Shown one piece after another: positions 2,490 through 11,379 of a DNA stretch of 11,533 bases. Location: the NCBI GenBank assembly GCA_021157815.1, contig JAGGVT010000072.1:1-11533 (forward strand), written 5' to 3'. Positions within the stretch are counted from its first letter, which is position 1, and each line of letters starts with the position of its first letter. The DNA comes from a bacterium. Lineage in GTDB: Bacteria; JAJVIF01; JAGGVT01. The position numbers were made by a program, and so were the translations under genes. Under the pieces are notes generated by a model. That model was given only the letters and a program-made list of their open reading frames with translations, was not told the DNA's origin and did no database searches.

Positions 2490-2531
2490 TTTTTACAGGG
2501 AGAGAGGTTGTGTGGATTTTTTTACGAAACT

Positions 2532-3260
2532 ATGATTATTTTTAAAAATGTTAACTTAAAATATCCCACCGGGATAATCGGGCTTGATAATGTCAGTCTT
2601 CGCATTGGACGTGGGGATTTTGTCTTCATCGTGGGTTCCACAGGAGGGGGCAAATCAACCCTTCTTAAAGTCATTTACGCTGAGGAGAAAATCGATTCCG
2701 GCAGCATTCTTGTTTTAAGAGGGGATATTAGCGATGTCCCATCCAGACTGGTCCCAATGGTCAGGCGAAGCATCGGGGTTGTATTCCAGAATTTCGAGCT
2801 GCTTTCCAATCGAACAATCGAGGAGAATGTCGCGTTCACACTGGATGTAATCGGCGCGCCAAAATATGAAATTGAGCGCAAGGTTCCCGCCGCTCTTAAA
2901 CTGGTAGGGCTTGATGGAAAAGAGAAAAACTATCCTGATGAATTGAGCGGAGGCGAGCAGCAGCGTGTATCCATCGCTCGCGCGATTATCAACAATCCGC
3001 CAATCCTGCTTGCCGATGAACCGACAGGAAACCTTGACCCTGGCACAAGCGTCGGAATTGTCAAACTGCTTATGAAAATTAATGAAAAAGGCACAACAGT
3101 GCTGATGGCGACTCACGATAAGAATATCGTTGACATGTTTCAAAAACGGGTGGTTCAGATAGAGGATGGACAGATTTTATCCGATATTTCCAGTGGAGGG
3201 TACCAGGATGCGATTCAACGCGGCCAGGTTTTTCCTAAGAGAAACACGGCTCAACATTAA
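2532..3260 (+). CDS. ftsE: Cell division ATP-binding protein FtsE
   Basis: The ABC ATPase of the FtsEX complex, which couples ATP hydrolysis to activation of septal murein hydrolases. There are 242 residues from the ATG at 2532; the start [14 protein letters not shown] matches the usual FtsE N-terminus. An in-frame TTG at 2508, just after GGGAGAGAGG, would add eight residues and cannot be excluded. Motifs: Walker [10 protein letters not shown] (35-43, with Gly where Ala is usual), Q-loop FQN (85-87), signature LSGGEQQR (138-145), Walker B ILLADEP (158-164), D-loop GNLD and switch His in ATHD (H195). The C-terminal tail past about residue 220 is longer than usual and overlaps ftsX by 53 bases. 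The identity is supported by ftsX and an EnvC-like gene following directly. Confidence 0.93.
3193..3200 (+). promoter_or_regulatory. Shine-Dalgarno fixing the ftsX start
   Basis: GTGGAGGG lies seven bases before the ATG at 3208, inside the 3' end of ftsE. It favours 3208 over the in-frame upstream ATG at 3166, because FtsX proteins begin near the conserved Arg-rich segment [14 protein letters not shown]. Confidence 0.7.
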
Positions 3261-4098
3261 AAGAAACAGCCAGTCAGGCTTGATTATGCTCGCTCAGACT
3301 GTTGTTTCCCTGCTGATACTTGGAATCTGCCTGATTTTCATTTTCAACGCCAACCACATGGTTACGAATTTCTTCAACAACCTTGAGATAAATGTCTTTC
3401 TGGAAAATACGGTTGATGATGTCGAGCTTGTGCAGATACAACGCCACATCAGGTCACTCGAAGGTGTCGGTGAGATGGAGTATATCTCAAAGGAGGACGC
3501 GTACTTATGGATGAAGGAAAATTCACAGTTTAATCTTGATGAGCTTGTGCGTGAGAATCCATTCCCGGCATCGATTCGACTAAAAGTCAAATCAACGAAG
3601 TCAATTGAACCAATCGCAAATGAAATAAGTTCCATGGCTGGAATTGAGGAGGTCAATTACGCCTCGGCATCACTGGGAAAAATTCTCCCGGTGTTTTATT
3701 TCATTCAGGTCAGCTGCTTTTTCCTGGCTCTTATTCTTGCCGGCATAACAATGTTCAGCATAATAAACGCAATAAAACTTGCGATTCACTCGCGGCGGCA
3801 GGAGATTAAAATCATGCGCCTTGTGGGAGCGACCGACCGCTTCATTCGCCTGCCATTCATGCTGGAAGGAATGTTCTACAGTTTTACAGGCTCCATTATT
3901 GCTTTTGCACTGGTGTCAGCATCATACGCACTTGTTATGAAATACGTCAATTTTACAAATCCGGTCATAAGCCTGTTTGTCAGCACGGGACAAGTCATGC
4001 TGAATCTCGGTATCCTTATGGGTGTTATCGGGATACTGGTCGGCATGCTTGGCAGCATGATATCCGTTGATAAACATCTTGCCGCGCATATAAGGTAA
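3208..4098 (+). CDS. ftsX: Cell division protein FtsX (ABC permease-like)
   Basis: The membrane partner of FtsE, 296 residues from the ATG at 3208, which has a good ribosome site. The order is a short cytoplasmic N-terminus, TM1 (about 25-48), an extracytoplasmic domain (about 50-165) with the FtsX-type ECD pattern (INVFLENTVDD, then EGVGEMEYISKEDA, FPASIRLKV and IEEVNYA), and three C-terminal helices (about 170-195, 220-245 and 260-285). RRQEIKIMRLVGATDRFIRLPF between TM2 and TM3 is the characteristic FtsX cytoplasmic loop that contacts the ATPase. In known systems the ECD binds an EnvC-like or PcsB-like activator, and a gene for such a protein starts six bases after this stop. Length and topology are normal. 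Confidence 0.93.
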   Translation: MRFNAARFFLRETRLNIKRNSQSGLIMLAQTVVSLLILGICLIFIFNANHMVTNFFNNLEINVFLENTVDDVELVQIQRHIRSLEGVGEMEYISKEDAYLWMKENSQFNLDELVRENPFPASIRLKVKSTKSIEPIANEISSMAGIEEVNYASASLGKILPVFYFIQVSCFFLALILAGITMFSIINAIKLAIHSRRQEIKIMRLVGATDRFIRLPFMLEGMFYSFTGSIIAFALVSASYALVMKYVNFTNPVISLFVSTGQVMLNLGILMGVIGILVGMLGSMISVDKHLAAHIR

Positions 4099-4104
4099 TT
4101 GCAT

Positions 4105-5265
4105 ATGAACAGATATTTTATCCACATAACCATTTCCAGCATTACAGCTCTTTTCTTAATGGGATTGCTCGGCATTCAATCGTTGAGTTTCGCGCAAGTT
4201 GACCAGGATGTTGTCGAGGAAAAAAAGGAGAATTTAACTCAGGTCAAGAATGAGAAATCAAAACTTCAAAATGAGATTGACGAGAAGAAAAAGGAAAAAG
4301 CGGGAACGGCTTACGACTACAGAAAAGCGGATGACAAGCTTGATTATATGCAGAAAAAACTTGTCAGGAAAGTAAATGACCTTGAGCGTCTTCAAAAACA
4401 GATTGTAATTTACTCTAATCAGCTTGATCTTGCCAAAAAGGATCTGGACAGTTATCAGGGGATTTTCGAAAAGCGAATTCGCGTATATTACAAAAATGGC
4501 GCGAAAAGTTTTCTTGGCGTAATTGTCGATGCAAAAGACCTGAGCGATCTGGTTTTCAGAATCAGGTGTACGGAAAAACTGCTGTCAGACCATGAACAAG
4601 CCATTGAAAATGTTATTGTTCAAAAGGAACAATTGGCGACATTAAAAGAGGAATGCACTCTTAAAGCGCATGAGGAAGACAAGCTCAGGAGCGATATCGC
4701 TACTGACCGTAATCAAATAAAAAGAATGCGCGATGAAAAAAAATATCAGCTTAACAGCATTAAAAACGACATAAAGAAACTTGAAAGCGCGATGCGTGAA
4801 TTTATCAAAGAGGAAATAGAACTGGAGTTCTTCCTCGAAGCCGCCGCGAAAGGCAATCTGAGTACAAATTTTGATGGTTCATTCACACTTCCACTTAAGA
4901 GCTATAGAGTTTCAAGCGACTACGGCTGGAGAATACATCCGATATTCAAGCGCCGGAAACATCACAACGGAATCGACCTTGCCGCGCCGTACGGCACGCC
5001 GATAACGGCTGCCGGTGCCGGTGTGGTCATCTATGCCGGCAAGAAAGGTGGATACGGCAACACGGTCATGATAAATCACGGGAAAGGATATGCGACTGTA
5101 TATGGGCACATGTCATCAATCCTTGTTTCAAATGGGCAGGAGGTCATGGAGGGGCAGCCAATCGGAAAGGTAGGGTCAACAGGGATTTCAACCGGAAACC
5201 ATCTTCATTTCGAAATACGAGTCAACGGCAAGCACCACAATCCCAGGGAGTTTTTAAATTTCTGA
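4105..5265 (+). CDS. EnvC-like murein hydrolase/activator, coiled coil plus LytM (M23) domain
   Basis: A 386-residue exported protein. The ATG at 4105 is preferred to the TTG at 4099, since AAGGT at 4092-4096 is well placed. A signal peptide (to about residue 30, ending SFAQ) is followed by a long charged coiled coil (about 35-240) and a C-terminal LytM/M23 peptidase domain (about 270-386). Unlike E. coli EnvC, whose LytM domain is degenerate and only activates amidases, the zinc and catalytic residues look complete: HNGID (H287, D291), YGHM (H335) and HLHFE (H366, H368). It may therefore cut peptidoglycan cross-links itself, closer to the Gram-positive hydrolases controlled by FtsEX. Position directly after ftsX supports partnership with its extracytoplasmic domain. 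Enzyme activity is inferred from residues only. Confidence 0.9.
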   Translation: MNRYFIHITISSITALFLMGLLGIQSLSFAQVDQDVVEEKKENLTQVKNEKSKLQNEIDEKKKEKAGTAYDYRKADDKLDYMQKKLVRKVNDLERLQKQIVIYSNQLDLAKKDLDSYQGIFEKRIRVYYKNGAKSFLGVIVDAKDLSDLVFRIRCTEKLLSDHEQAIENVIVQKEQLATLKEECTLKAHEEDKLRSDIATDRNQIKRMRDEKKYQLNSIKNDIKKLESAMREFIKEEIELEFFLEAAAKGNLSTNFDGSFTLPLKSYRVSSDYGWRIHPIFKRRKHHNGIDLAAPYGTPITAAGAGVVIYAGKKGGYGNTVMINHGKGYATVYGHMSSILVSNGQEVMEGQPIGKVGSTGISTGNHLHFEIRVNGKHHNPREFLNF

Positions 5266-5309
5266 TGCTTTGTCATTTCAGCGAAAGGGCTTGTTGAAAA
5301 AGCGCTAAT

Positions 5310-5410
5310 GTAGGGGCGAACCTTGTGTTCGCCCAGAAAGTTAGGCATAAATACAGGACAACCAACTAGTGGGCAACCCACCAGTGGGCGAACACAAGGT
5401 TCGCCCCTAC
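5310..5410. repeat. Perfect 25-bp inverted repeat, MITE/REP-like intergenic element
   Basis: The 25 bases at 5310-5334 (GTAGGGGCGAACC, then TTGTGTTCGCCC) recur as an exact reverse complement at 5386-5410, around a 51-base centre. The centre ends with the near-duplicate words CTAGTGGGCAACCC and CCAGTGGGCGAAC. This could form a long cruciform or an RNA hairpin between the EnvC-like gene and ctpA. It has no coding capacity, and no target-site duplication is obvious. Confidence 0.85.
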
Positions 5411-5442
5411 GGTTTTGGACAAATTGTGTTTTATTAAACGCG

Positions 5443-5481
5443 TTGCCGATAATGTTCCTGTGGATATATACTTTTCACAGG
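5443..5481 (+). promoter_or_regulatory. Candidate ctpA promoter with overlapping dyad
   Basis: TTGCCG (5443-5448) and TATACT (5467-5472) are 18 bases apart, and CCTGTG (5457-5462) pairs with CACAGG (5476-5481) around the -10. The dyad is a possible operator that would block polymerase, or a coincidence. A start near 5479 would leave a short leader before the AGGAG at 5491. Confidence 0.4.
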
Positions 5482-5500
5482 TTTAATCTAAGGAGTTTGA

Positions 5501-6910
5501 ATGATGTCAGTAAATAAATGGATTCTTGTGCAGATGATAATCATCATCTTTCTCTCTTTTTTCCTGGGGTATAAAACCAGCCAGATTGAAACAGCGGGGG
5601 TTGAAATTCTGCCTGAATGGATTGCAAGTTCATCCATTGGTGAATTCGCCTTCACACGCACAAACGATAAAGGAATAATCACGCTTAAAGACCTGAAAGA
5701 GGTGCAACAGGCATTTGAGCAGATTCAAAGGCATTTTATCAACCATGATGTAACGAAAAGGCAGCTTATCGATGGCGCAATCTCGGGTGGAGTCGCGTCG
5801 CTTAACGACAGATACAGCAGATATTATCCTCCAACCGACAGCCGGGAAATTCAGGAAGACCTTGAAGGATTCTACGGCGGCATCGGAATCATGGTCGAAC
5901 CAATCAAGGACGGCAGGGGCGCGTTGATTACATCTGTTTTCAAAACAGGCCCGGCATTTGAAGTCGGCATCATGGCGGGGGACATTATCATTGAAGTGGA
6001 AGGCGAGGACGTTTCAAGCATGTTCCTGCAGGATATTGTCGCGCGAATCAAAGGTCCTGAAAACACTCATGTCAAAATGAAGATTTTCCGCCAATCCATC
6101 GGCGACAATGTCGAGTTCGATGTGGAACGCAAAAATGTAAAATACCCATCTGTTTTCGAGAAGAAAATCCTTGAGGGCACCGATGGAATCGGCTATATCC
6201 AGTTGGCTAATTTCAACAACGAAACCGCGAAGGATTTTCAGATAGCTGTTGATGAGCTTCTTGAGTTGGGAATGAAATCGCTGATTCTTGATCTCAAGCA
6301 GAATACAGGAGGTTCATTCCAGGCGGCGATTGAAATCGCGGATGTTTTCGTTGCTGACGGTGTGATGGTTTATTCTGAAAGCAGAGATGGAAAGCTGATT
6401 GAATATCCTGGCGAGGGCAATGGGGACGGCGGAAAGAAACTGGATATTCCGCTTGTTGTTCTGGTAGATATGTACAGCGCGTCAGCATCAGAAGTGCTTG
6501 CGGGCGCGATTAAAGATCATGGCGTCGGCACATTAATCGGCACAAAGACTTTCGGCAAGGGTGTCATTCAGAGTGTCCTGCCACAGCCATCCGGTGGATT
6601 GCTCCTTCTGACCATTTCCAAATATTTGACTCCCGACCAGCATGACATTAATCACACAGGCATCCAGCCAAACATTCAGGCGGAGGTTGATTTTGAAACT
6701 ACATCTGATCCCTTCCTGAAAGAGAAATATGAAAAAGCGGAGGAACTTCGCATTGAACTGCTTGCAATCCGCGATGAACTTATGCAATATCTTAAGGATT
6801 ATGATTTCCAGCTTGAGACTGCAAAGCAGTATCTTGCAAACGGCGAACTTCTCGAGGGAGCGTTCTATGTTGAGGATGAAGTTGAGGAAGAGCCAGTTGT
6901 TGAGGAGTAA
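5501..6910 (+). CDS. C-terminal processing peptidase, S41 family (CtpA/Prc-like)
   Basis: A 469-residue periplasm-facing serine protease of the CtpA type. AGGAG at 5491-5495 precedes two adjacent ATG codons (5501 and 5504), and either could be used. An N-terminal membrane anchor or signal (about 7-24: WILVQMIIIIFLSFFLG) is followed by an N-terminal helical segment, a PDZ domain (about 124-205, starting FYGGIGIMVEP) and the S41 catalytic core. The catalytic Ser/Lys dyad is visible as S328 in YSASASEV and K353, 25 residues later, in TFGKG, the spacing seen in Tsp/CtpA. The C-terminus ends in an acidic tail (VEDEVEEEPVVEE). These proteases degrade or mature periplasmic proteins including murein hydrolases, which fits the EnvC-like gene upstream. 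A repeat element separates them, so they may be separate transcripts. Confidence 0.93.
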   Translation: MMSVNKWILVQMIIIIFLSFFLGYKTSQIETAGVEILPEWIASSSIGEFAFTRTNDKGIITLKDLKEVQQAFEQIQRHFINHDVTKRQLIDGAISGGVASLNDRYSRYYPPTDSREIQEDLEGFYGGIGIMVEPIKDGRGALITSVFKTGPAFEVGIMAGDIIIEVEGEDVSSMFLQDIVARIKGPENTHVKMKIFRQSIGDNVEFDVERKNVKYPSVFEKKILEGTDGIGYIQLANFNNETAKDFQIAVDELLELGMKSLILDLKQNTGGSFQAAIEIADVFVADGVMVYSESRDGKLIEYPGEGNGDGGKKLDIPLVVLVDMYSASASEVLAGAIKDHGVGTLIGTKTFGKGVIQSVLPQPSGGLLLLTISKYLTPDQHDINHTGIQPNIQAEVDFETTSDPFLKEKYEKAEELRIELLAIRDELMQYLKDYDFQLETAKQYLANGELLEGAFYVEDEVEEEPVVEE

Positions 6911-6914
6911 AGAG

Positions 6915-6995
6915 TTGAACTTGGGAGCGCTGGTCTCTGACCGGCATTTTAGCAAGGCTAGCTAAAATCAACAGAGTTTGTCTAACAGATGACAT
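6915..6995 (-). repeat. Dispersed intergenic repeat, copy 2 (reverse orientation)
   Basis: The core at 6922-6946 is the exact reverse complement of 176-200. On the minus strand, similarity to copy 1 extends gap-free from ATG at 6995 through the core to GTTCA, about 80 bases. The element begins just after the ctpA stop and is opposed to the core copy at 7073-7099. Confidence 0.8.
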
Positions 6996-7070
6996 ACCGA
7001 AAAATAAGGATTGGGTTTATCAGCTCATATTTGTATGATTCAGTTTCACTATTTTCAGTCAGCCCAATCA

Positions 7071-7099
7071 AGTGCCGGTCAGAGACCAGCGCTCCCAGG
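7071..7099 (+). repeat. Dispersed intergenic repeat, copy 3 (core only)
   Basis: The core at 7073-7097 is identical to 176-200 and is followed by the same GG as copy 1. The upstream arm shared by the other two copies is not recognisable here. With the 6922-6946 copy it forms a 25-bp inverted repeat around 126 bases, which also contain GATTGGG (7009-7015) and CCCAATC (7063-7069). The 6911-7192 gap is otherwise without a supported gene. Confidence 0.75.
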
Positions 7100-7192
7100 A
7101 AAAGACATATTTATAAAACGGAACGATTTAAAACATAGTTTTTCAGGGGCTAATCGGTAGCCTAAAAAAATAACTCACTGGAGTACAATTAA

Positions 7193-7705
7193 ATGCCACG
7201 TCCACGAAAAAAAGCAGATGTCTATTTCGAACAGCGAACAGGTGTTTTTGTCGATGTTCAAAATATGTTCTACTCCGCGAAATACAAGTATCGCGGGAAA
7301 ATCGATTATCAAAAACTGCTTGTTTATATTGCAAGAGGCCGCAAAATTGTCAGGGCGCTTGCTTATGCAGTAACCACACCCGAAATCGACCAGTCCGGGT
7401 TTATTAAAATCCTTGAGGATCTCGGAATTGAAGTGAAAATCAAGGAATTGAAACTAAGGCCCGACGGCACCGCGAAGGGCGATTGGGACATGGGCATCGC
7501 CATTGATTCTGTGGCGTTGTCCGACAAGCTGGATGTCATCGCGCTGGTCAGCGGCGATGGCGATTTCAGCGCGCTTGTTGAAATGCTCAAGGCTAAAGGT
7601 GTCAGGGTGGAAGTGTATTCATTTCCAGCGAACACCGCTGAGGAATTGAAAAAAGTGGCGACGCAATTCTATCCACTTGATGAGAGTATTCTCTTCGAGG
7701 GTTAA
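7193..7705 (+). CDS. NYN-domain (LabA/DUF88-like) putative RNase
   Basis: A 170-residue soluble protein of the NYN/LabA-like group, a PIN-like fold whose members are proven or predicted metal-dependent RNases. The conserved acidic set is visible: FVDVQN (D21, N24), the GDWDMGIAID segment (D97, D99, D105) and SGDGDF (D122, D124). GGAG at 7180-7183 is nine bases before the ATG, supporting this start. The N-terminus is short and basic (PRPRKKA), perhaps for nucleic-acid binding. A putative metalloprotease gene begins four bases after the stop, so the two are almost certainly co-transcribed. The RNA target is unknown. A role in turnover, RNA quality control or stress is possible, but nothing in the sequence decides. 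Confidence 0.88.
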   Translation: MPRPRKKADVYFEQRTGVFVDVQNMFYSAKYKYRGKIDYQKLLVYIARGRKIVRALAYAVTTPEIDQSGFIKILEDLGIEVKIKELKLRPDGTAKGDWDMGIAIDSVALSDKLDVIALVSGDGDFSALVEMLKAKGVRVEVYSFPANTAEELKKVATQFYPLDESILFEG

Positions 7706-7709
7706 GGCA

Positions 7710-9014
7710 TTGAGTAAAAAAATGTTCAAAACCTTCCATCTTGCCGATATTGACACGCTCCGGGAAATTGAAAACGGGCGGGTTGCAATCGCTGAACTTG
7801 ATGATGTCAGCCGGTGGATTGATTTGGCTATAAGCTCAATTCCAACTCTGGCAAAATACCAGAAAGCGCTTATCAAAATCGAGGAGTATTTCGAGGAGTC
7901 AGGACTCGAGTGCGATGACCTTCATCTGTGGCGCGCGTATCGAAACCTCTTCGCACAGCGCTTTTCAGGCATCTATGATGACATCCTGGAAGTAAGCGAT
8001 GTAATCACAAACGACCTGTTTAGATATTTTATCAATCACGCGCATTTAAAAGATGCGAAAAGCCGTTTTGCCAAAGAGACAATTCCGCTGACTTTTCTTG
8101 GTCGAACTGAGGATTATTATTTCACTTATACGCATGACACGGAGCGGCCTATCGCTGTCATTTCCATTCCACAGGGACGTGTTAGTTCTGTCTGGAACTG
8201 GCTGGCGATTCCCCATGAAATCGGACATAACATTTTCGCTCATTTCATTGATTATGAGCGTGAACTCTGGGATAAAGTCAGGCGTGTACTGGAAAAACAA
8301 CGGTTCAAAGTTAATAGAATCAACTTTTCACACAACATCAGCGGCAAGAAAATCATTCAAACAATATGGCGTTTCTGGCTTGATGAACTGGTCGCGGATA
8401 TTTTCGGAGTGCTTTTCACAGGTCCCTCTTTTGTAATGTCACGTCATGATGATGCGATGATTGCCGCTGAACAGTCTGAAGGAATCTCCACCGCAATATG
8501 GAATGTTGACGACATGGAGATGACAAAACATCCAGTCGCCTATATTCGACCCCTCATTGGCGGCAGGATTCTCAAGGTTCTCGGATTTGAGGATATCGGG
8601 AATGCTCTGGATGAACGCTGGCTGGGCGTCTGTTCACGTTATACATCGAGCCAGGATTTAATTTGGGTCGATTACACGACGTCCGGCAGAGTTGAGCTGT
8701 TCACCATTTCAGCCGATGAAATGCTTCGAAGCTTCGATGCGATATTGCCGGAAATACTGTTCAGTGAAATGAAATGCCTTGGCGGTGTTGCGTTAACCGA
8801 TATCATCCGGTTCGATAACCTTGACAATGTCATTTCAAGAGTGGTCGCGGAGGAATTAATTGCCGGAATCGATGAGTTTACCGAGTACATCAAACCAAGG
8901 CATATCCTTGCCGCGAGTCGCATGGCATTCGAGAATGAACCTGAGCAAGCGGATGTTATCCACGCGTCCGCGATGAGGGGATTGATATATTATAAGAATA
9001 ACTATATAGAATGA
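7710..9014 (+). CDS. Uncharacterised HEXXH putative zinc metalloprotease paired with NYN gene
   Basis: A 434-residue protein if it starts at the TTG at 7710, which has GAGGG (7697-7701) eight bases upstream, or 430 residues from the ATG at 7722. The longer in-frame opening at 7677 lies inside the NYN gene and is less likely. I do not recognise a named family. It carries HEIGH (169-173), and 53 residues later FWLDELVADIFG (E226, D230), the arrangement of a gluzincin-type zinc site (HEXXH plus a distant Glu). No signal peptide or clear transmembrane helix is seen, so it is probably cytoplasmic. The N-terminal third is charged and helical, with an LRAY/LFAQRF-like helical patch, and the C-terminal half after about 300 has no motif I know. 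Tight linkage to the NYN gene suggests a shared function. Protease activity is inferred from residues only. Confidence 0.7.
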   Translation: MSKKMFKTFHLADIDTLREIENGRVAIAELDDVSRWIDLAISSIPTLAKYQKALIKIEEYFEESGLECDDLHLWRAYRNLFAQRFSGIYDDILEVSDVITNDLFRYFINHAHLKDAKSRFAKETIPLTFLGRTEDYYFTYTHDTERPIAVISIPQGRVSSVWNWLAIPHEIGHNIFAHFIDYERELWDKVRRVLEKQRFKVNRINFSHNISGKKIIQTIWRFWLDELVADIFGVLFTGPSFVMSRHDDAMIAAEQSEGISTAIWNVDDMEMTKHPVAYIRPLIGGRILKVLGFEDIGNALDERWLGVCSRYTSSQDLIWVDYTTSGRVELFTISADEMLRSFDAILPEILFSEMKCLGGVALTDIIRFDNLDNVISRVVAEELIAGIDEFTEYIKPRHILAASRMAFENEPEQADVIHASAMRGLIYYKNNYIE

Positions 9015-9674: not shown

Positions 9675-10132
9675 ATGGACAAAATAGAATTAACACAAAT
9701 AGAAGCAGATAAATTGATTAATGTGGAAAAGCATTATCAAGGTGAACAACCCGTAGATTTCCCGGCCTTGGAGAGAAGATCAGCCTTAAGTTAATCTCAC
9801 ACGATAAGAGAGAGAAATTCTTACTTGATATAACACGCAGTTATATTAATATTCGAAAATCAACATATCAAAATCGCGTCAGAACATCAATAATCCTTGT
9901 TCGATTGGATTTGAATGGTTCAAAACATGTGAATCCTGACGGTGAGGAATTTTCGGGTTCCCACATTCATATTTATCGTGAAGGATATGGTGATAAATTT
10001 GCATATGATATTTCATCTGAGAAGTTCCTGGATAAATTTACGAATTCAGAAGATTTAACGGATGCCCTGTACAATTTTATGAAATTCTGTAATATTACAA
10101 AACAACCTGACTTTCAAAAGGCCATTTTATGA
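9675..10132 (+). pseudogene. DUF6978-like protein, reading frame broken at TTTCCCG (frameshift or -1 recoding)
   Basis: Two reading frames together give one family-like protein. Frame A starts at ATG 9675 (MDKIELTQIEADKLI, continuing to PVDFP) and stops at 9794 after 39 residues. Frame B reads GLGEKISLKLISHDKREKF from 9764 and continues through VRLDLNGSKHVNPDGEEF and HIHIYREGYGDKFAYD to TGA at 10132. These are the hallmarks I know from DUF6978 proteins (QEEAD-like N-terminus, RLD, NPDG, H-H-YREGYGDK). Joined by a -1 step at 9764 the product would be 152 residues, a normal length for the family, and every conserved block falls in the right place. Its stop overlaps the next start (ATGA). The function is unknown. 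Inactivating indel, sequencing error or recoding cannot be separated from the sequence alone. Confidence 0.65.
9758..9764 (+). promoter_or_regulatory. Candidate -1 frameshift heptamer T TTC CCG
   Basis: In frame A the codons are TTC CCG preceded by T, so the site fits the X-XXY-YYZ pattern, and a one-base backward slip (to TTT CCC) moves directly into frame B. AAGG (9739-9742) lies upstream like an internal ribosome-binding stimulator. No strong hairpin is seen downstream, which weakens the case. Confidence 0.35.
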
Positions 10133-10893
10133 TTAAAGAAATACAGAAATTGATGGATGAATATCAGAATTGGCTAAAAGGTAAGACATCATTACGAGAG
10201 ATTGATGGATGGGTAGAAATAACCACTCCATACATTGATCGACATAATGATTATCTTCAAATTTTCGTAAAAAAACAAAATGGCGGTTATTTGCTAACTG
10301 ATGATGGATATATTATCAGTGATTTGTCTTTATCTGGTTGTGACCTTAATACTGAAAAAAGACAGAGGCTGCTTCAGCAGACTTTAAGAGGCTTTGGCGT
10401 TGAGCAATCAAAAGATACATTAATGGTTGTTTCAAATGAAAGTAACTTTTCATTTAAGAAACATAGCCTCTTGCAATCCATGCTCGCTGTTAATGACCTT
10501 TTCTATATGGCTGAGTCATATATAACAAGTCTTTTTTATGAGGATGTAGTTTCCTGGTTGGAAAAACAGGAAATTCGTTATACTCCAAGAGTCAAATTCG
10601 CTGGTAGAAGTGGATATGACCACCACTTTGATTTCGTGATTTCAAAATCAAAAACGCATCCTGAAAGATTAATAAAGGTGATTAATAAACCAACTCGTGA
10701 TAATGCAGGCTCCTTAATGTTTTCATGGCTCGATACAAAGGATGATCGCCCTCCAATGTCAAAAGCATATGCCTGTTTAAATGATACCGAAGGAAGAATA
10801 TCAAAAGGAGTTCTTGTTGCCTTTAAGAACTATGATATCAGACCAATTGAATGGAGCAAGAAAGACGATTTCATTGAGGAATTAGCAGCATGA
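10129..10893 (+). CDS. DUF1828/DUF1829 domain protein
   Basis: A 254-residue soluble protein. The N-terminal part (about 20-90) matches my recollection of DUF1828: GWVEITTPYIDRHNDYLQIFV, then GGYLLTDDGYIISDLSLSG. The C-terminal part (about 150-245) resembles DUF1829: HHFDFVISKSK, PERLIKVINKP, SWLDTKDDRPP and AYACLND. Both are domains of unknown function, common on phage and accessory DNA. The ATG sits inside the ATGA overlap with the DUF6978-like frame, so translation is probably coupled. The gene is visibly AT-rich compared with the division genes (the row 10141-10200 is about one third G+C, the row 8581-8640 a little over half), consistent with recent acquisition. A defence, toxin-antitoxin or phage-derived role is possible but not shown. 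Confidence 0.8.
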   Translation: MIKEIQKLMDEYQNWLKGKTSLREIDGWVEITTPYIDRHNDYLQIFVKKQNGGYLLTDDGYIISDLSLSGCDLNTEKRQRLLQQTLRGFGVEQSKDTLMVVSNESNFSFKKHSLLQSMLAVNDLFYMAESYITSLFYEDVVSWLEKQEIRYTPRVKFAGRSGYDHHFDFVISKSKTHPERLIKVINKPTRDNAGSLMFSWLDTKDDRPPMSKAYACLNDTEGRISKGVLVAFKNYDIRPIEWSKKDDFIEELAA

Positions 10894-10929: not shown

Positions 10930-11379
10930 TCATCCCAAATACGGATACTGCTTTCGGAATTCATACAGCGCGATGCCGCCCGCGTGCACTACATTCAGGC
11001 AACCGGTAACGCCATACTGCGGGATGATAACCGTGTCATCCAGTTTGGGGTAAACGGCTTCCTCGATTCCCCCCATCTCGCTGCCAAGCACTAACAGCGA
11101 TTTCTCGTTGAATTTGTATTCATACATCGAAAAGGCATTCTCATCATTTTCAATTCCCACAACGCGATAACCATCTTTTTTGTAGATGTCGATGATATCC
11201 GCATCCTCGGTGAATTCTATCGGTATCCACTGGTGAGAGCCTTTTGTGACGCTTGGCGAGAATGTTTTGTGGCCATACATGATAACGCGGTCAACAGCCA
11301 TGACCTCCGCGGTGCGCAGGATTGACCCGACATTACCCGGGTGATGCATTCGTTGTATGAATAGTATCAGTGACGGCAT
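10930..11379 (-). CDS. TrmH/SpoU-family (SPOUT) RNA 2'-O-methyltransferase
   Basis: A 149-residue SAM-dependent methyltransferase of the trefoil-knot SPOUT class, which modifies ribose 2'-OH in tRNA or rRNA. The three motifs are present: motif 1 HHPGNVGSILRTAEVM (12-27, with the catalytic-type Arg in LRTA), motif 2 LLVLGSEMGGIEEAVY (94-109) and motif 3 IPQYGVTGCLNVVHAGGIALYEF (118-140), where Cys replaces the more usual Ser before LNV. It is the short form, with a SPOUT core and no N-terminal RNA-binding domain, as in TrmL-like proteins, but the substrate cannot be named. It is convergent with the DUF1828/1829 gene, 36 bases apart. TATACT on the minus strand at 11397-11392 is a possible -10, giving a very short leader. 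No Shine-Dalgarno is evident. Confidence 0.9.
   Translation of the reverse strand: MPSLILFIQRMHHPGNVGSILRTAEVMAVDRVIMYGHKTFSPSVTKGSHQWIPIEFTEDADIIDIYKKDGYRVVGIENDENAFSMYEYKFNEKSLLVLGSEMGGIEEAVYPKLDDTVIIPQYGVTGCLNVVHAGGIALYEFRKQYPYLG

Follow-up and report, generated by a model that had tools for sequence, protein, structure and literature searches.

We found that the predicted RNase gene and the HEXXH peptidase-type gene that adjoin each other in this DNA are each conserved independently and probably became neighbours in this lineage only, the second probably encoding a soluble, divergent M48-like gluzincin. The window, the whole stretch of 11,533 nucleotides that was analysed, carries the two genes on the same strand with a gap of four bases (7706-7709). 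The preliminary description had given this spacing, an acidic NYN site (D21, D99, D122, D124) and a 430-434-residue protein with the motifs HEIGH and ELVAD. All of this was borne out: the four aspartates lie at the claimed positions and are identical in all 23 NYN homologues, and E226 of ELVAD lies 53 residues past H173 of HEIGH (Table 1). The HEXXH reading frame, which stops at 9014, offers starts at TTG 7710 (434 aa), ATG 7723 (430 aa) and TTG 7677 (445 aa). We took TTG 7710 as the best of them because of the GAGGG upstream of it, within the NYN gene.

Table 1. Positions in the window of the genes, motifs and signals discussed, with the loci in which a HEXXH-family gene directly follows NfeD/FloA.
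Feature	Position	Strand	Basis or remark
ftsE	2508-3260	+	Family models TIGR02673, NF038347, PF18075 and PF01551 (for the ftsE-ftsX-M23 block, 2508..5265)
ftsX	3166-4098	+	Same set of models
M23 murein hydrolase/activator, PcsB-like coiled coil	4099-5265	+	Same set of models
ctpA, CtpA-type S41 carboxy-terminal processing peptidase	5501..6910	+	PF03572, E 2.9e-48; TIGR00225 over cut-off
NYN-domain (PIN-like) predicted RNase, 170 aa	7193..7705	+	ATG 7193; PF01936
GAGGG ribosome-binding-like site	7697..7701	+	Overlaps the 3' part of NYN, 8 nt upstream of TTG 7710 (sequence)
Predicted divergent M48-like zinc-peptidase-type protein (HEXXH protein)	7710..9014	+	Motif set, hhalign, fold comparison
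HEIGH (residues 169-173)	8214..8228	+	Predicted zinc ligands H169 and H173; predicted general base E170
ELVAD (residues 226-230)	8385..8399	+	E226, predicted third zinc ligand
HPVAYIR (residues 274-280), HPx4R motif	8529..8549	+	Predicted autoinhibitory plug, as in BepA (M48)
HEXXH-family gene directly after NfeD/FloA			L022, L104-L109, L111-L114, L116-L118, L120, L121, L123

The HEXXH protein and the M48 peptidases

The HEXXH protein matched no family model in Pfam, NCBIfam or PADLOC. The M48 profile of Pfam (PF01435) failed to match any of the four members from the window's phylum up to E 10, or any of 26 family members up to E 1. The motifs nevertheless point towards M48. According to a study of BepA, the HPx4R motif is conserved throughout PF01435, its histidine in BepA (H246) is the fourth zinc ligand and lies within an active-site plug, and a search for HExxH-x(30,140)-HPx4R identifies the M48 family in E. 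coli (PMC7950410). The window protein carries the corresponding residues at M48-like distances: H169 to E226 spans 57 residues and E226 to H274 spans 48, against 58 and 49 in an M48 protein of the same phylum (L128), and the distance from the first histidine of HExxH to the glutamate is 56-60 in several M48 proteins of that phylum. In 200,000 shuffles of the HEXXH protein, HExxH alone arose 5618 times and the pattern with HPx4R 20 times; with ExxAD in between it never arose. The window protein fits HExxH-x(30,140)-HPx4R, and this pattern matched 20 of the 1258 open reading frames in the loci, every one of them in the HEXXH family (20/26 members).

Profile alignment and modelled structure gave a similar picture. 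Comparison with M48 proteins of the phylum by hhalign returned a probability of 71 (P 3.8e-5), with the alignment confined to the part running from ExxAD to HPx4R. A first model, built from a 4-sequence alignment (pLDDT 72.6), had weak structural matches only, led by the zinc metalloprotease Zmp1 (Z 4.7). For a later AlphaFold model built from 26 sequences (pLDDT 83.7), the top VIA-align match was BepA (6ait; 177 aligned residues, rmsd 5.8), at a Z of 7.9 that falls within the tool's warning range. Foldseek alone gave no match for the HEXXH model at E 0.001, and a PDB sequence search with the HEXXH profiles produced nothing convincing. A bacillamide NRPS chain proposed as a PDB relative by the 4-member profile (E 0.0086) was rejected, as the match was gone with the deeper profile.

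Profile and structure searches with the 434-residue protein thus yielded no family model and BepA as the best structural neighbour. The term "unrecognised", used for this protease in the preliminary description, holds for the family models but not for the motifs and the fold, both of which indicate an M48-like gluzincin. From its motifs and its modelled fold, the HEXXH protein is most likely a soluble zinc peptidase that is M48-like but divergent and that carries an autoinhibitory plug. Because the M48 profile is unmatched, we describe the protein as M48-like without placing it in the M48 family. We consider it unlikely that the protein belongs instead to a different gluzincin branch (M1, M4 or M56-like) and that its HPx4R likeness to M48 is convergent. 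M1, M4, BlaR1 and other gluzincins do follow BepA in the VIA-align results (Z 4.5-6.2), and the absence of a sequence match to M48 would suit such an origin, but the HPx4R segment, with its invariant arginine and near-invariant proline, is a mark of the M48 family, and the motif spacing agrees with M48 as well.

We also assessed whether the catalytic residues are kept among homologues, the preliminary description having allowed that they might not be. Within the window's phylum they are: the relatives are 35-41% identical to the window protein, and all four members retain HExxH, E226, D230 and HPx4R. Across the 26-member alignment, HExxH together with E226 and D230 is present in 21 members, and column counts are 22/26 for E226, 21/26 for H274 and 25/26 for P275. 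Some distant relatives have lost the motif, and five of the 26 lack the zinc ligands; D230, G238, R280, G292 and W304 are invariant throughout. Since the ligands are lost in these five while five residues stay invariant, the fold has a non-catalytic role in some members. That the window protein itself is no longer an enzyme and serves in binding or as a scaffold is improbable, given that HExxH, E226, D230 and HPx4R have been kept there despite such low identity.

As an M48-like peptidase, the window protein would hold a zinc ion through H169, H173 and E226, and E170 would activate water. By analogy with the description of BepA, the HPx4R segment would plug the active site, with H274 at the fourth zinc site and R280 within the site, and entry of a substrate would displace the H274 plug. 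If the protein is proteolytic, it most likely turns over particular proteins or controls their quality.

Neighbours of the two genes in other genomes

To determine how often the two genes occur together, the surroundings of 26 HEXXH-family and 23 NYN loci were scanned with profile HMMs, reaching at most 6 kb to either side and stopping short where a contig ended. Both genes were found together at one of the 26 HEXXH loci and one of the 23 NYN loci, in each case the window, in a sample that includes only four genomes of the window's phylum and draws its HEXXH family mainly from one other class. The HEXXH protein is encoded in all four genomes of the phylum, and two of the three other genomes have a close NYN orthologue (61% and 68% identity). 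In those two relatives the NYN and HEXXH orthologues lie on different contigs, in separate loci. The system joining the two proteins that the preliminary description envisaged thus shows no recurrent adjacency, and in our sample the pair occurs in this genome only. Since each gene keeps different company elsewhere, NYN and HEXXH probably form no joint system.

The local arrangement is a property of the window genome alone. There, the four-base gap suggests that the two genes are probably co-transcribed and may be translationally coupled, and together with the ribosome-binding-like site inside the NYN gene it fits deliberate co-expression, which counts against a chance juxtaposition. PADLOC gave nothing for the window HEXXH protein and one weak, unrelated match (E 0.034) for a relative, and HEXXH relatives were found neither in viral contigs nor in phage records. 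A role of the pair in phage response was dropped for want of any matching defence model or phage occurrence. It is very unlikely that the two genes are a recent functional pair in which the peptidase, under stress or phage attack, would turn RNA cleavage on or off by cutting the NYN RNase or an inhibitor bound to it: the short same-strand gap, the internal ribosome-binding-like site and the intact catalytic residues of both proteins favour it, but the pair is absent from every other locus examined, two relatives retain both genes apart, and the peptidase family has no defence model beyond one chance-level match and no phage record.

A search of 385 genomes with a deeper HEXXH profile added one further genome (G101), as a weak match. 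In it, three tandem, distant HEXXH-family copies adjoin a large TPR-like protein (L147, 6209-10363), and the signature is degenerate in some of them. Plasmids hold two weak relatives, both with the full motif. The first, on a Bradyrhizobium plasmid (L145, 4734-6155), has HEVGH and HPNHYLR and lies among patatin, phospholipase-D-like and two CHAT-domain genes, surroundings that look like a conflict or signalling cluster. The second, on a plasmid of the archaeon Haloplanus (L146, 4533-5675), has HEFGH and HPPAALR and lies near UvrD-helicase and PD-(D/E)XK nuclease genes. In genome G236, a HEXXH relative adjoins a putative Argonaute-like gene that is seemingly split by a transposase (L023, 7845-11206). 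Elsewhere in the window, positions 10129-10893 encode a DUF1828+DUF1829 protein that matches the PADLOC candidate PDC-M24B (E 5.2e-104), in a low-GC stretch (0.33). A SpoU-type methyltransferase gene lies near it on the opposite strand (10930-11379).

Predicted peptidases beside flotillin genes and a predicted RNase beside cell-division genes

At 17 of the 21 loci from the class of genome G376, FloA is immediately followed by a HEXXH-family gene in the same orientation. Contig ends truncate two of the four exceptions (L110 and L115), which leaves 19 scorable loci and a count of 17/19. Where the contig extends far enough, NfeD genes precede FloA, in the order NfeD-NfeD-FloA. Many members in this class have a hydrophobic N-terminal segment that the window protein does not, and some of the FloA-linked members have lost the zinc ligands. 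The NfeD-FloA flotillin genes deal with unfolded membrane proteins. FloA-NfeD is reported to bind and stabilise unfolded proteins (PMC11222466), so an adjacent peptidase would fit protein quality control in this class. FloA was not found in the window's phylum, and the flotillin link is therefore not directly transferable there. We tentatively regard it as quite possible that the window protein is a founding member of a family akin to M48 that has yet to be described and that includes both active and ligand-less (pseudo-enzyme) forms. In the other class the family would usually partner the NfeD-FloA flotillin complex, acting in bacterial membrane microdomains as a peptidase or as an adaptor derived from one, and in the window's phylum it would be soluble.

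The NYN protein matches PF01936 over the full length of the domain (E 1.4e-36; 126.6 bits, against a curated cut-off of 24.2), and its closest solved structure is VPA0982 (2qip, E 4e-31). In the window its gene follows ftsE, ftsX, M23 and ctpA (2508-7705). A ctpA gene precedes NYN in five of the 23 NYN loci, usually after ftsE-ftsX-M23, and two of the five are outside the window's phylum. The gene adjoins NYN in L018, L019, L090 and L091; the full order ftsE-ftsX-M23-ctpA-NYN is seen in the window, L018, L090 and L091, and L019 has only ctpA-NYN. By genome, the block stands upstream of NYN in G001, ctpA alone does so in G002, and the full order recurs in G166 and G019, both from outside the phylum. 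The remaining NYN loci have mixed neighbours, the most frequent family being S41 with its PDZ domains. An LptA/OstA-like identity of the gene that follows NYN in G001 and G002 was rejected, as no family model supports it; for the G002 copy, nothing related was detected in the other genomes.

These data suggest that the NYN gene product is a stand-alone predicted RNase that ends the ftsE-ftsX-M23-ctpA block. Our literature search found no paper describing a NYN RNase that closes an FtsEX-M23-CtpA block, and a link between RNA decay and cell division is a possible reading of this gene order. In conclusion, the tempting pairing of nuclease and protease is unsupported, and the locus offers two firmer leads instead. 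The first is an unnamed M48-like family, matched by no family library tried and linked to flotillin in most of the scorable loci from a single class. The second is a predicted NYN RNase, found after the cell-division block both inside and outside the window's phylum. The FloA-linked peptidase family is a better lead than the NYN-HEXXH pair and merits a profile of its own.

Comparison with known systems

The M48 family (PF01435; BepA, HtpX, LoiP and YcaL in E. coli) shares with the window protein the HExxH motif, the downstream glutamate in ExxAD, the HPx4R motif and the spacings between them, and one of its members, BepA, is the best structural match. In contrast to M48 proteins, the window protein has additional N-terminal and C-terminal parts of about 150 aa each, has no Pfam score, and lacks a membrane-helix-like stretch and a TPR match. 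The NfeD-FloA flotillin operon is followed directly by relatives of the HEXXH protein in another class; the window's phylum differs in being without FloA. With the NYN family (PF01936; LabA-like, VPA0982) the window RNase shares the full-length domain and all acidic residues, and it differs in standing alone, at 170 aa, and in lying behind ctpA in several genomes. Finally, the genes upstream of NYN correspond to the cell-division and cell-wall block of FtsEX, an M23 protein (EnvC/PcsB-like) and CtpA, and the version in the window is distinguished by ending with a NYN RNase.
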